Shown here piece by piece: positions 302 to 24,373 of a DNA stretch of 27,441 nucleotides (the first letter of the stretch is position 1; each line of letters starts with the position of its first letter). The position numbers and the translations under genes were made by a program. The DNA is taken from positions 1 through 27,441 of IMG/VR virus record IMGVR_UViG_3300021962_006617. One strand, written 5' to 3'. The notes beneath the pieces are model-generated. The model had not been told where the DNA came from and did no database searches. It worked only from the letters and a program-made list of their open reading frames with translations. Origin of the DNA: a virus.

Positions 302-479
302 TTGTTTAAAAAGGGTAAGTAAAAGTTCGGGGGACGAACTGAAACAATTATACTCCACAGCACCCTCCACTGTGGATATGAGAGACATATTTTACATGGA
401 TAGTCTCGGTAAGGAGGTTAGTCCCTTTTCTCCATGTTCAATGTTTCGAAACATTAAGGTCTCGTAACATTTGTTTACC
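302..479 (-). promoter_or_regulatory. Structured leader of psbA with several inverted repeats
   Basis: Non-coding stretch between psbA and its promoter. Dyads seen: a 6-bp stem 324-329/335-340 with 5-nt loop; a 7-bp stem 354-360/370-376; a 6-bp stem 395-400/431-436 enclosing about 30 nt; and a perfect 16-nt palindrome at 440-455 (AATGTTTCGAAACATT). If transcription starts near 475 these would all be in a leader RNA of about 175 nt, long for a phage. A role in mRNA stability or translation is inference. Confidence 0.5.
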
Positions 480-2708: not shown

Positions 2709-2737
2709 ATTATATAGCAAAAAGAAAGGGGCGTCAA
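2709..2737 (-). promoter_or_regulatory. Strong sigma70-type promoter of the hli-petF-petE operon
   Basis: TTGACG (2737-2732), 17-nt spacer, TATAAT (2714-2709) on the minus strand; RNA start expected near 2702. The -35 box lies inside the loop of the terminator 2725-2746 that ends the upstream operon, so stop and restart signals are nested. Confidence 0.85.
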
Positions 2738-2746
2738 TCCCCCTTT
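2717..2746 (-). terminator. Terminator of the glycan operon
   Basis: Stem AAAGGGG (2725-2731) with CCCCTTT (2740-2746), 8-nt loop, then CTTTTTG on the minus strand. It follows the last carbamoyltransferase stop by about 20 nt. The loop holds the -35 box of the next promoter. Confidence 0.85.
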
Positions 2747-14024: not shown

Positions 14025-14824
14025 AAAATTATCCACCCATCACAATAAAGATCTTTAGTATTTTTATCAGAATTATTAGGACCAAACCACAGAGATGGTG
14101 CAACAACTTTTCCAGTATTTGCTAACCATGCTCCCCACCAACTAAAGGTACTGTTGGCAATAATAAAATCGGAACACCTAGACATTAAATAAAGATCATG
14201 ATAGGGTCCATTTCCTTCAGAAACAAGAAACCTATCATCGGAAAAAATTGATTGTTCTTTACACCAAGATGGATCATCAGAGAAGATTACTACTTGACGA
14301 TCACCATCAAACTGCTGAAGTGCTTCCTCATAGTATTCAATAGGGAGATTGGCATGATTGGCAGAGTTAATTAAAAAGTCTCCTCTACGAATATGTAAAG
14401 CAATAGGATTATCAAACTGATCTACAATATCAGCACATTCAGTAACATACTTATCTTGAAAAGTAAAGTCTTGACGAATTTGATCTTCAATATGCTTGAA
14501 ATATTTTTCAGTTTGAAAATATCCAAAAAGAGAAACATCTTTAGATGAATCTAATTGAAAAAATTCTGGACTGAATTCAAAACTACTTTCTTGTACATAT
14601 CCTTCTGAAGGAAGATTTAATGTCATACAAGAAGTTAATTTTAAAGAAAAAACATCAAACAATTCAATTCTTAAACGATTACCCAACCCATCAATAACTA
14701 TTTCTCTATGATTTGGGATTGTAAAATCGGTTTCAATTTTTTTCGCAATACCTTTAGTTGCGGCATATTGAAACATCTGGTTTCCCAGTTGCCCCAACTT
14801 ACCCAAATGGTTAAACCCAATCAT
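14021..14824 (-). CDS. GT11 fucosyltransferase (alpha-1,2 type)
   Basis: 267 residues from the ATG at 14824 (ATGA overlap with the epimerase stop). Diagnostic GT11 motifs: GQLGNQMFQYAATKGIA (11-27), HIRRGDF (144-150), and NSTFSWWGAWLA near residue 230. These enzymes transfer L-fucose from GDP-L-fucose. The gene directly upstream encodes a GDP-mannose 3,5-epimerase-like enzyme, whose product GDP-L-galactose differs from GDP-L-fucose only by a 6-OH, so this enzyme may use L-galactose (inference). Confidence 0.9.
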   Translation of the reverse strand: MIGFNHLGKLGQLGNQMFQYAATKGIAKKIETDFTIPNHREIVIDGLGNRLRIELFDVFSLKLTSCMTLNLPSEGYVQESSFEFSPEFFQLDSSKDVSLFGYFQTEKYFKHIEDQIRQDFTFQDKYVTECADIVDQFDNPIALHIRRGDFLINSANHANLPIEYYEEALQQFDGDRQVVIFSDDPSWCKEQSIFSDDRFLVSEGNGPYHDLYLMSRCSDFIIANSTFSWWGAWLANTGKVVAPSLWFGPNNSDKNTKDLYCDGWIIL

Positions 14825-15864
14825 TTTTGTATTTGTTCGGAAATCCAATTGTAAGTCTTGCGAATTCCTTCCTCAAGAGTTTGTGAGTAGTCCCAACCAA
14901 GTTCTTTGCGGATCAGATCATTATTTGAATTACGACCACGAACACCTAAAGGACCAGGAACATGATTTTTCTCAACCTTTTTACCAGCAACTTTAGCAGC
15001 AGTATCAACCAGTTGATCAATTGTTACCATCTCTTCCGATCCAATATTGACTGGCCCGATGAAGTTAGAATCCATCAGACGACGAGTTGCTTCAATACAT
15101 TCATCAATGTAAAGGAATGAACGAGTTTGTTTTCCATCACCCCAAACATCAATACTACCACCCTCTTCTGGAAGGTATGCTACTTTACGGCAGATTGCTG
15201 CTGGTGCCTTTTCACGTCCACCATCCCAGGTTCCTTCAGGACCAAAGATGTTGTGATAACGAGCAACCCGTACAGGAATCCCGTAATTACGATGATAAGC
15301 GAAAAAGAGTCGCTCTGAGAACAGTTTCTCCCAACCATATTCAGAATCTGGGTTAGCAGGGTAAGCTGATTCTTCACGGCAGTCGGGGTTATCAGGATCG
15401 AGTTGGTTGTGTTCTGGATACATACAAGCAGATCCAGAATAAAAAATCTTAGTAGTATTTTTACCAACCCTTTCATTCATCTGATGTTGCATTTCAAGAA
15501 CATTCAGATTAATTGTTGCTGAGTTGTGCATGATATCAGCATCATTATCACCAGTGAATACAAAACCAGCACCACCCATATCAGCAGCAAACTGATAAAT
15601 TTCATCAAATACCTGAATATAACGATAAGGAACTGAGTGATAGAAGTTACCAGCATCCCCCTTATATTCAAGCACACGACGAACAAAATCTACATCACGT
15701 AGATCTCCAAGTACAAATTCATTTGCTTCGTGCTTTGAATACTCTGGATACTTAAGGTCTACACCACGAACCCAGTATCCTTCGGAACGCAGTCTGCGAA
15801 CCATATGACTTCCAATGAAACCACCAGCACCAAGAACAAGTGCCTTTTTGATATATTGACTCAT
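14821..15864 (-). CDS. GDP-mannose 3,5-epimerase-like SDR enzyme
   Basis: 347 residues, extended SDR fold. NAD loop GAGGFIGSH (12-20), Cys147 in SGSACMYPE, Tyr176/Lys180 of YGWEK, and GGREKAPAAICRK (215-227, Lys219). The stretches GDGKQTRSFLYIDEC, PVNIGSEEMVTIDQL and GPLGVRGRNSNNDLI follow the plant GDP-mannose 3,5-epimerase (GME) closely, including the Cys and Lys used as acid/base in the plant enzyme. It would convert GDP-D-mannose to GDP-L-galactose (or GDP-L-gulose). First gene of the operon, about 13 nt behind the predicted RNA start; no clear Shine-Dalgarno. Higher GC than the downstream genes, suggesting a separate origin. Confidence 0.88.
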   Translation of the reverse strand: MSQYIKKALVLGAGGFIGSHMVRRLRSEGYWVRGVDLKYPEYSKHEANEFVLGDLRDVDFVRRVLEYKGDAGNFYHSVPYRYIQVFDEIYQFAADMGGAGFVFTGDNDADIMHNSATINLNVLEMQHQMNERVGKNTTKIFYSGSACMYPEHNQLDPDNPDCREESAYPANPDSEYGWEKLFSERLFFAYHRNYGIPVRVARYHNIFGPEGTWDGGREKAPAAICRKVAYLPEEGGSIDVWGDGKQTRSFLYIDECIEATRRLMDSNFIGPVNIGSEEMVTIDQLVDTAAKVAGKKVEKNHVPGPLGVRGRNSNNDLIRKELGWDYSQTLEEGIRKTYNWISEQIQK

Positions 15865-15888: not shown

Positions 15889-15917
15889 ATTATACTAAAA
15901 AAGGTGGGTTTGTGCAA
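15889..15917 (-). promoter_or_regulatory. Promoter of the glycan operon
   Basis: TTGCAC (15917-15912), 17-nt spacer, TATAAT (15894-15889) on the minus strand. The -35 box lies in the loop and adjoining arm of the terminator hairpin. The only recognisable promoter for the 13-kb operon down to 2765. Confidence 0.7.
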
Positions 15918-15926
15918 CCCACCTTT
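15894..15926 (-). terminator. Terminator before the glycan operon, nested with its promoter
   Basis: 11-bp perfect stem (15900-15910 with 15916-15926), 5-nt loop, followed on the minus strand by further T to give TTTTTT in all. On the plus strand only three T follow, so it acts on minus-strand RNA, ending the transcript of 16055-16792. Confidence 0.85.
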
Positions 15927-16815: not shown

Positions 16816-16844
16816 ATTATAAGTGCTTGAGTGTTTTGTGTCAA
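16816..16844 (-). promoter_or_regulatory. Perfect-consensus sigma70 promoter
   Basis: TTGACA (16844-16839), 17-nt spacer, TATAAT (16821-16816) on the minus strand, about 25-30 nt before the start at 16792. Every position of both boxes matches. Confidence 0.88.
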
Positions 16845-16847
16845 GTG

Positions 16848-16867
16848 TGCCAGTGAAGTAACTGGCA
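16848..16867 (-). terminator. Hairpin just behind tRNA-Pro
   Basis: 7-bp perfect stem TGCCAGT/ACTGGCA with 6-nt loop, three bases after the tRNA 3' end. No T run follows, so it may guide 3' processing or mark the transcript end rather than be a classical terminator. Confidence 0.45.
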
Positions 16868-16869
16868 AT

Positions 16870-16942
16870 CGGAATGACAGGATTCGAACCTGCGGCGTCT
16901 CGCTCCCAAAGCGAGTGCTCTACCAAGCTGAGCTACATTCCG
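16870..16942 (-). tRNA. tRNA-Pro (anticodon TGG)
   Basis: Complete 73-nt cloverleaf on the minus strand: acceptor CGGAATG/CATTCCG, anticodon stem CTCGC/GCGAG with loop TTTGGGA, T arm GCAGG-TTCGAAT-CCTGT. Reads CCA and, by wobble, other Pro codons. Driven by the promoter at 16977-17005. Confidence 0.95.
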
Positions 16943-16976
16943 TTGCGTTGAGTGGTCTTGCCTCCCAACAGAAGTA

Positions 16977-17005
16977 ATTATACTACTTCTTGTGCCCCTT
17001 GTCAA
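16977..17005 (-). promoter_or_regulatory. Promoter for tRNA-Pro
   Basis: TTGACA (17005-17000), 17-nt spacer, TATAAT (16982-16977), minus strand. Both boxes perfect. The -35 lies inside the last codons of the 50-residue gene upstream and the -10 directly follows its TAG stop. Confidence 0.85.
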
Positions 17006-19835: not shown

Positions 19836-19864
19836 ATTATAAGTATAAATTCAAAATAAGTCAA
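19836..19864 (-). promoter_or_regulatory. Promoter of tRNA-Ser, with palindromic -10 region
   Basis: TTGACT (19864-19859), 17-nt spacer, TATAAT (19841-19836), minus strand. The -10 lies in the palindrome TTATAATTATAA (19831-19842), so the plus strand also has TATAAT (19832-19837), which could serve the plus-strand gene at 19865 although no plus -35 is seen. A late-like TATAAATT also occurs on the plus strand at 19844-19851. Confidence 0.75.
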
Positions 19865-21772: not shown

Positions 21773-21937
21773 TTAGAACTTATCTAACATGTATTCTACA
21801 GTATTTGCTACATCATTCATAGCATCACGAAGATTGGGTCTTTGACCTGATTCTTGTTTAACTACTGGACGGTGATCGTCAGTTAGGGTCCAACGCCATT
21901 GATTCATATCCTTACAGAACCAGAGATTAATTTTCAT
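21773..21937 (-). CDS. Small hypothetical phage protein
   Basis: 54 residues from the ATG at 21937 with GGAG 10-13 bases upstream. Opens MKINLWFCKDMNQWRWTLTD; C-terminus LRDAMNDVANTVEYMLDKF is helical. No known motif. Overlaps the end of the upstream gene by 11 nt. Confidence 0.72.
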   Translation of the reverse strand: MKINLWFCKDMNQWRWTLTDDHRPVVKQESGQRPNLRDAMNDVANTVEYMLDKF

Positions 21938-22085
21938 TCTTGAAATACTCCAGTTCAATCCATTTGAGAAGAGTATTGTATGAATAGATTGCTGCATCAT
22001 TGCAGTTATTCTTTTTCATATCTTGAATATAAAATTCAAGAGCATCAATAACCATCTCACGATCTTTTTGGGAAATAAGAGACAT
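21927..22085 (-). CDS. Small hypothetical phage protein
   Basis: 52 residues: MSLISQKDREMVIDALEFYI, then KKNNCNDAAIYSYNTLLKWI. All-helical look, no membrane part. Excellent TAGGAGG site six bases before the ATG and promoter about 20 nt further. Resembles small proteins common in cyanomyoviruses. Confidence 0.78.
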   Translation of the reverse strand: MSLISQKDREMVIDALEFYIQDMKKNNCNDAAIYSYNTLLKWIELEYFKNEN

Positions 22086-22106: not shown

Positions 22107-22135
22107 ATAATACATTAAAAAGGGGGTCTTGTCAA
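22107..22135 (-). promoter_or_regulatory. Promoter nested in a terminator
   Basis: TTGACA (22135-22130), 17-nt spacer, TATTAT (22112-22107), minus strand. The -35 lies in the loop of the terminator 22117-22140. Drives 22085-21773 and tRNA-Val. Confidence 0.8.
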
Positions 22136-22140
22136 CCCCC
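22117..22140 (-). terminator. Terminator of the exported-protein gene
   Basis: 6-bp stem GGGGGT/ACCCCC (22122-22127, 22135-22140), 7-nt loop, TTTTT on the minus strand; 25 nt behind the stop of 22165-22542. Confidence 0.85.
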
Positions 22141-22164
22141 CATTCTGTATTATGTAGTTAGGTA

Positions 22165-22542
22165 TCAGAAGGAATAACGGACCTTCAGTTCACCACCAAG
22201 AGCAAACACTTCGCTATCAAAACCATACTCACCAGCAACTTTTGCTTTGCCAGTCAGGTTTCCAGCGATAGGGAAGTTAACACCAACTTCACCAACACCA
22301 ACAGCTTCATTGGTGCCACCATTGTTCCACTCATAACCAGGACCGATTTCACCGAAAACGGTTACACCATTGGAAGCTTTCTGCTCGTAACCAACACGAA
22401 GTTCGGTTTGAGCGCCAGTGAAATCACCACCATCAGTAATGACACCAGCAGCAGTGGTCTTGCTCTCAACATAAGGACCTGCGAACGCAGCCGAAGCAAG
22501 GAAAGGAGCAGCAGCAACAGCTGCGATTGCGGATTTAAACAT
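22165..22542 (-). CDS. Exported, beta-rich small protein (outer-membrane-like)
   Basis: 125 residues from the ATG at 22542 with AGAGGT upstream. Signal peptide MFKSAIAAVAAAPFLASAAFA (1-21), then about 100 residues of alternating Gly-rich strands (TELRVGYEQKASNGVTVFGE, GVGEVGVNFPIAGNL, GGELKVRYSF) ending in an aromatic residue, as in outer-membrane beta-barrel proteins. It could have six or so strands. Separate single-gene unit with its own early/late double promoter, a 105-nt leader with three hairpins and its own terminator, which suggests tight control. A role at the host envelope is inference. Confidence 0.75.
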   Translation of the reverse strand: MFKSAIAAVAAAPFLASAAFAGPYVESKTTAAGVITDGGDFTGAQTELRVGYEQKASNGVTVFGEIGPGYEWNNGGTNEAVGVGEVGVNFPIAGNLTGKAKVAGEYGFDSEVFALGGELKVRYSF

Positions 22543-22563
22543 AATAGTACCTCTATATTTTCT

Positions 22564-22869: not shown

Positions 22870-22898
22870 AGTATATGACATAATGAGTATTATGTCAA
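22870..22898 (-). promoter_or_regulatory. Promoter inside the tRNA array
   Basis: TTGACA (22898-22893), 17-nt spacer, TATACT (22875-22870), minus strand. A perfect 9-bp inverted repeat (22876-22884/22889-22897) lies between and over the -35 box. Confidence 0.7.
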
Positions 22899-23159: not shown

Positions 23160-23188
23160 ATTATATCAGTCCTTGGGGCAGTCGTCAA
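23160..23188 (-). promoter_or_regulatory. Promoter of the tRNA array
   Basis: TTGACG (23188-23183), 17-nt spacer, TATAAT (23165-23160), minus strand. The -35 lies within the loop of a 7-bp hairpin (23171-23177/23189-23195), all inside the last codons of the upstream gene; the -10 directly follows its TGA stop. Confidence 0.82.
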
Positions 23189-23558
23189 CCCAAGGAGCAC
23201 AGATTCTCATTTCTCCACCAAGCAGTCTCTGTGCCTCACTGCCGTCTGGTGCTTTCTCAACATACTTAGGTTTCTTTATGGACTCGTTAATAATACGGTC
23301 ATACTCTGGTGTGACCTCATCAATCGCTCTATCAACATCACGCTTGATTCTGCGTTCTAACTTCGCAGGATCTTTAATAACAAACTCATTAAGAATAGTT
23401 TGTGGGAAATATTTTCTTTGAATCTCATCCAATAAGTCCCAAAGTCCATCTTCAGATACTCCAGTGCATTGTGAGAGTGCTGCTATAAGAGAAGATAATA
23501 CGATTCCTATTATAGCATATTGTTTTATATTTGGTTTTTGTTTGCCAAATTTAAACAT
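23166..23558 (-). CDS. Membrane-anchored protein next to the lysozyme gene
   Basis: 130 residues from the ATG at 23558 (a longer reading would start in a hairpin). Basic N-terminus MFKFGKQKPNIKQ, one hydrophobic helix (AIIGIVLSSLIAALSQC) and then a long charged segment (LERRIKRDVDRAIDEVTPEY) with a C-terminal CAPWVDDC. Topology fits an N-terminal anchor with an outer soluble domain. Position behind a peptidoglycan hydrolase suggests a lysis or entry partner such as a spanin-like protein, but there is no proof. The 3' end carries the tRNA-array promoter. Confidence 0.7.
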   Translation of the reverse strand: MFKFGKQKPNIKQYAIIGIVLSSLIAALSQCTGVSEDGLWDLLDEIQRKYFPQTILNEFVIKDPAKLERRIKRDVDRAIDEVTPEYDRIINESIKKPKYVEKAPDGSEAQRLLGGEMRICAPWVDDCPKD

Positions 23559-24316: not shown

Positions 24317-24340
24317 AAACCCACTCTTTGAAGTGGGTTT
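24317..24340 (-). promoter_or_regulatory. Hairpin at the RNA start of the lysozyme transcript
   Basis: 9-bp perfect stem AAACCCACT/AGTGGGTTT with 6-nt loop, starting at the predicted transcription start and followed by TCTGTT. Could protect the 5' end or act as an early attenuator. Confidence 0.5.
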
Positions 24341-24344
24341 GTTC

Positions 24345-24373
24345 ATAATAAGTTAATATTTAGGATTTGTCAA
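24345..24373 (-). promoter_or_regulatory. Promoter of the lysozyme unit
   Basis: TTGACA (24373-24368), 17-nt spacer, TATTAT (24350-24345), minus strand; about 125 nt before the start at 24211. The stretch between holds the hairpin 24317-24340 and nothing else I recognise. Confidence 0.75.

Follow-up and report, generated by a model that had tools for sequence, protein, structure and literature searches.

Terminator hairpins with a promoter -35 box in the loop: a putative nested stop-and-start element in cyanophages and some unrelated large phages

Three sites in a fragment of a T4-like Synechococcus phage carry an intrinsic terminator and a sigma-70-type promoter on shared DNA, with the -35 box at the loop of the terminator hairpin and the T run inside the spacer that leads to the -10 box. 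We consider it highly probable that these are nested terminator-promoters, at which the same bases would end one transcript and start the next. The arrangement exceeds chance expectation, is confined almost entirely to two registers and, where it could be followed across relatives, is conserved around an invariant promoter.

The window (the whole stretch of DNA analysed) is a 27.4-kb virus record whose nearest annotated relatives include DSL-LC03, S-SRM01 and S-CREM1. Its long genes lie mostly on the minus strand, and it contains six tRNA genes, one wcaG RNA and one PhotoRC-II RNA (340-439, minus strand), the last adjoining a psbA fragment at the window start. For comparison we used 160 viral loci surrounding genes for DNA polymerase or psbA, 1.65 Mb in total, together with whole reference phage genomes; the host control was confined to psbA-flanking cyanobacterial loci (1.5 Mb), most of them belonging to filamentous species.

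The initial annotation had described four places where a -35 box lies at the loop of a hairpin, and re-reading of the sequence found all four, on the minus strand. At sites 1 to 3 (2709-2746, 15889-15926 and 22107-22141) the T run falls within the 16-17-nt spacer before TATAAT or TATTAT, and each combines a GC stem-loop, a T run and a position at the end of a gene block, as expected of an intrinsic terminator; site 4 is not counted here. Site 1 has the layout AAAGGGG[GATTGACG]CCCCTTT ctttttgcta TATAAT, with the hairpin at 2725-2746, the T run at approximately 2719-2724 and the promoter TTGACG-17-TATAAT at 2709-2737, its -35 in the loop. It precedes a gene (2487-2681) assigned by PHROG as hli (high-light-inducible protein); orthologues of the hairpin occur at hli promoters, and stretches similar to the site 1 promoter were found in 156 phage records. 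Site 3, GGGGGGTTGACAAGACCCCCT ttttaatg TATTAT, lies between a beta-barrel gene (22165-22545) and a 52-aa ORF (21927-22085), with the hairpin and T run at 22121-22141, the promoter TTGACA-17-TATTAT at 22107-22135 and a counterpart in S-SRM01. Predicted RNA hairpin energies for sites 1, 2, 3 and 4 are -10.7, -17.0, -14.8 and -12.0 kcal/mol, and with a spacer of 17 the hexamers match the sigma-70-type consensus at 11/12 positions at sites 1, 3 and 4.

The promoter of site 2 has a weak -35. Its layout is AAAGGTGGGTT[GCACA]AACCCACCTTT tttag TATAAT (hairpin 15900-15926, promoter 15889-15917), ahead of a nucleotide-sugar epimerase gene (14821-15864). The -35 proposed for it, TTGCAC at 17 nt, is indeed present, but it matches only 3/6 consensus positions; TGCACA at 16 nt, an alternative -35, matches 4/6. 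The orthologue in DSL-LC03 reads TTGACA-17-TATAAT, a 12/12 match.

Site 4 (23160-23196) has the layout TCCTTGGG[TTGACGACTGC]CCCAAGGA ctga TATAAT and, as the initial annotation had stated, its hairpin (23170-23196) is followed by no T run. Its inclusion as a fourth member of the module did not hold, because the T run is absent and the hairpin is not conserved: the stem is lost in DSL-LC03 (CCATGGGTTGACAGTTGCCCTAAAG) and S-PM2 (CCATGGGTTGACACCTGCTCCATCAAG), while the promoter hexamers are kept. The same DNA encodes a conserved APWVD peptide ahead of a stop codon, which persists in both relatives. We therefore excluded site 4 and judged its hairpin incidental, retaining a conserved promoter, TTGACG-17-TATAAT (23160-23188), which lies shortly ahead of tRNA-Arg and overlaps the end of a coding sequence. 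Strong sigma-70-like promoters adjoin most tRNA genes of the window (16816-17005, 19836-19864, 22870-22898 and 23160-23188).

The layout suggests how sites 1 to 3 could work. RNA from the upstream genes would fold into the GC-rich stem-loop with its U run, ending the transcript, while in the DNA the loop would present the -35 and the 3' arm and T run would form a 16-18-bp spacer, from which the host polymerase with its main sigma factor would start the next block, presumably early, a few bases past the previous end. Two signals can share bases in this manner because one acts in the RNA of a passing polymerase and the other in sigma-bound double-stranded DNA. Composites sit between co-directional genes, their stem beginning a median of 23 nt past the stop codon and the next reading frame a median of 47 nt past the expected start. 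Their hairpins are no weaker than those of other cyanophage terminators, with a median energy of -12.8 kcal/mol against -11.6 kcal/mol, in segments cut slightly differently. The most likely benefit would be compact insulation of neighbouring co-directional gene blocks.

It is also possible that the released polymerase is handed to the next promoter. In such a relay, which would extend the nested explanation rather than oppose it, the polymerase that has just terminated would stay on the promoter DNA and re-initiate, so that upstream transcription feeds the downstream unit. Escherichia coli polymerase often remains on DNA in vitro after intrinsic termination and re-initiates nearby, in 37 percent of terminations and in 55 percent with added sigma (PMC6978380); a composite places the release point on the promoter itself, and the architecture recurs in unrelated phages. 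Against this, a polymerase in the act of terminating also occupies the promoter, which it could obstruct, and compaction alone predicts an identical layout. We regard a relay as rather unlikely, and are equally doubtful of its wider form, in which large lytic phages would repeatedly have evolved a dedicated relay with two precise geometries, chaining early units without read-through.

The nested terminator-promoter reading draws on the relative placement of the two signals across many loci. When 231 promoters (match of at least 11/12, spacer 17) were used as anchors, hairpin loop centres concentrated on the -35, with 42 of them within 10 nt, whereas most 5-nt bins elsewhere held 0-3; smaller peaks corresponded to a group at DNA polymerase loci with the -35 in the 3' arm and to a second register. 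Anchoring on 729 cyanophage terminators gave 57 cases in which the stem starts at -40 to -31 relative to the end of the -10, placing the loop on the -35, and 24 in which it starts at 0 to +9 after the -10, 22 of these at 0 to +4 and 23 at 0-5 nt. Outside these two registers each 5-nt bin held 0-3 promoters, typically about 1, and the zone in which the stem would cover the -10 was nearly empty. Neither peak was seen for 325 terminators in the cyanobacterial loci, where the same places held 0 and 1. Since the 3' arm and T run fill the 16-18-nt spacer, a terminator that spares the -10 places its loop on the -35.

In the second register the start of a transcript from the element's own promoter would fall within the 5' arm, so that this transcript could probably not rebuild the stem, while a transcript arriving from upstream could still form the terminator. 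The window holds a possible element of this kind (24317-24373, minus strand), in which the promoter TTGACA-17-TATTAT (24345-24373) is followed by a terminator hairpin (24317-24340) whose stem core starts 7 nt past the -10, a borderline position for the class. Eight further loci show this geometry, with the hairpin mostly 0-3 nt past the -10 and the start expected in the 5' arm (L092, L139, L154, L102, L150, L115, L163 and L411), and in such elements an ATG often stands immediately behind the T run. A related layout is found upstream of DNA polymerase, with a longer hairpin, for example GGGGCAACTGG[CAAAAT]CCAGTTGACGCCCC and then a T run, and with the -35 in the 3' arm (L019, L020, L024, L034, L062, L078 and others).

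Loop content pointed in the same direction as the registers. In the loops of cyanophage terminators no 4-mers are more over-represented than TTGA and TGAC (48 against 12.2 and 41 against 8.5 expected), and a -10 stands at 16-18 nt in 32/37 terminators with a TTGAC loop, compared with 3/42 with a TTCG loop; 28 of the matches behind TTGAC loops are at exactly 17 nt. Searched in IMG/VR as fixed patterns, AGGGGNTTGACNCCCCT occurred in at least 120 stretches and a control of the same composition, AGGGGNTCAGTNCCCCT, in 13, and among the matches listed a -10 stood at exactly 17 nt in 34/80 loci. A late-promoter analogue, TAAATA in the loop of a terminator at 687-714, was also considered and rejected, as TAAA is not enriched in loops (22 against 18.3).

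A UUGAC loop might instead be favoured as an RNA feature, for stability or for a protein or RNA partner, with the adjacent -10 incidental; some hairpins behind wcaG RNAs do have a (U/C)UGACC loop with neither T run nor -10. We find this very improbable given the TTCG comparison, the rarity here of TTGAC-loop terminators that lack a -10, and the behaviour of the hli hairpins described below, which shift register and change their loop bases while the DNA word TTGAC stays.

In order to follow the element at one gene, hli relatives were fetched by protein alone, which yielded 45 different upstream regions whose spacer is 17 nt long; TTGAC and TATANT occur unchanged in all 45. A stem of at least 6 bp surrounds the -35 in 30/45, in seven pairing registers and with loops that include CTTGA, TTGAC, GACA, GACAA and TGAC, and 15/45 have the promoter without the stem; the sequences are related, so these counts are not independent events. 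Letter-shuffled flanks gave 4.3 +/- 2.0 stems and flanks swapped between orthologues 17.4 +/- 2.2 (maximum 24 in 200 trials), against the 30 observed. Spacer T content was 7.1 at promoters with the hairpin and 4.8 at those without (p = 4.5e-5). We read the hli region as a fixed promoter, with terminators apparently built, lost or re-registered around it, and as a third of the orthologues lack the hairpin, the terminator part is not essential there. An arm-swap test on composites preselected for the hairpin was circular and was set aside in favour of this gene-anchored test; carbamoyltransferase, tried as another anchor gene, gave only two near-identical loci. The promoters of sites 2 to 4 are also conserved in relatives, and a composite of S-PM2, at 124309, stands immediately before the annotated hli03 gene.

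The same data bear on the suggestion in the initial annotation that the -35 might be hidden or uncovered by a hairpin extruded from supercoiled DNA. The arms of a hairpin are necessarily inverted repeats, as a cruciform would need. Stems of 6-12 bp are, however, short for cruciform extrusion, and most stems here are in that range. The T run, needless for a cruciform, sits on the transcribed 3' side only and its T content tracks the hairpin, and the register is variable, all of which fits an RNA terminator. We found no support for a cruciform switch and hold it to be exceedingly improbable.

Site 2 combines the nested terminator-promoter layout with a structured RNA. A wcaG RNA (RF01761; 15931-16031, minus strand; 99.3 bits, with the gathering score at 42) lies directly upstream, and the order wcaG then composite is common to the window, DSL-LC03 and S-SRM01. 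Across the window, DSL-LC03, S-SRM01 and locus L114, the hairpin is built from four different self-complementary stems, each directly behind the wcaG RNA or its 3' part. wcaG has been described as a 5' UTR element and a candidate riboswitch in cyanophages (PMC2864571). At site 2 it immediately precedes a terminator hairpin, as would be expected if the RNA could control termination; the difference is that a promoter start lies between wcaG and the gene, and that no such RNA accompanies site 1 or site 3. At six other loci (L282, L339, L353, L355, L372 and L402) wcaG is followed by the GC hairpin with a (U/C)UGACC loop, lacking T run and -10, mentioned above. The last hairpin of wcaG has a conserved GUCAA in its loop (CCAGUCAAAG), with which the (U/C)UGACC loop could pair, possibly as a kissing interaction.

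Within the window itself, composites with a T run (at least 5 T of 9) number 3, against a mean of 0.01 in dinucleotide shuffles, of which 0/150 reached 3. When the T run was not required, 5 hairpins over a -35 were observed against a mean of 0.06, and 0/150 window shuffles reached 5; the fifth, at 17005, is weak and contains mismatches. We relied on the whole-window shuffle, as a shuffle of intergenic blocks left just 15 blocks, from which two of the sites were absent. The claim that the stop-and-start arrangement recurs beyond chance was upheld by this shuffled-control scan, the register peaks and the orthologous sites. Chance overlap of common terminators and common promoters in crowded intergenic DNA, of which site 4 and the 17005 hairpin have the look, is the least credible explanation of all, as the window shuffles, exclusive registers, loop-content control and orthologue swap control stand against it and it is contradicted already for sites 1 to 3 taken as a class.

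The design is not confined to cyanophages. With one detector, composites numbered 6 in phage K, 6 in Twort, 3 in KVP40, 2 in S-TIM5, 1 each in A511 and T4 and 1-4 in each cyanomyovirus; single hits (T4, A511, Syn9) mean little, because 0 or 1 also turned up when each set was shuffled once. In some complete cyanophage genomes the count is only one, and none in Syn9 is convincing. The same detector found 0 composites in EF24C, SPO1, FelixO1, HTVC008M, Ma-LMM01 and two T7-like cyanophages, and 2 in the 1.5 Mb of host cyanobacterial loci. The Staphylococcus phages K and Twort share the nested design, and four composites of phage K coincide with terminators annotated by the depositors, at 129226, 132831 and 136385 on the plus strand, which come from the one detector or its looser version, and at 32921 on the minus strand. 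KVP40, a T4-like phage of Vibrio, carries three near-identical copies of AAAGGGTT[GAC..GTC]A(A/G)CCCTTT-cttg-TATTAT (L621:5859, L622:194 and L623:1377), which suggests that a composite has been repeated.

Among known systems, Kayvirus 515A1 is the closest in its parts. According to the accessible text of an RNA-seq study, its early promoters (TTGACW-17-TATANT) and its terminators (GC stem-loop with poly-T) are both active, a terminator ends one unit where a sigma-70-type promoter starts the next, and one early promoter lies immediately behind a terminator; that text, however, treats the two as separate adjacent elements and does not describe a -35 in the loop (PMC7698491). Polymerase recycling shares with our proposal a terminated polymerase able to start anew from a neighbouring promoter of that template, but it was observed in vitro, on constructed templates in which terminator and promoter are separate, and is a process rather than a sequence element (PMC6978380). 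Synthetic bifunctional terminator-promoter elements likewise end and start transcription in one part, and are presented as an engineered fusion in yeast (PMC10298055). In the literature searched we found no prior description of a nested terminator-promoter, although this does not prove novelty.

These observations indicate that a terminator and a promoter can stack on the same bases, with hardly any registers used beyond two. Phages whose hosts are unrelated use this stacked design; it is not used in the cyanobacterial loci examined. The overlap can be missed where terminators and promoters are annotated separately. In three phages and one metagenomic contig, wcaG immediately precedes a terminator and a new start, which bears on how it could act. 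The composites offer a natural 45-bp insulator part, as well as natural templates with which to ask whether the recycling of terminated polymerase is important in vivo. In large cyanobacterial viruses and some unrelated phages, an element of roughly 45 letters appears both to stop and to restart transcription.
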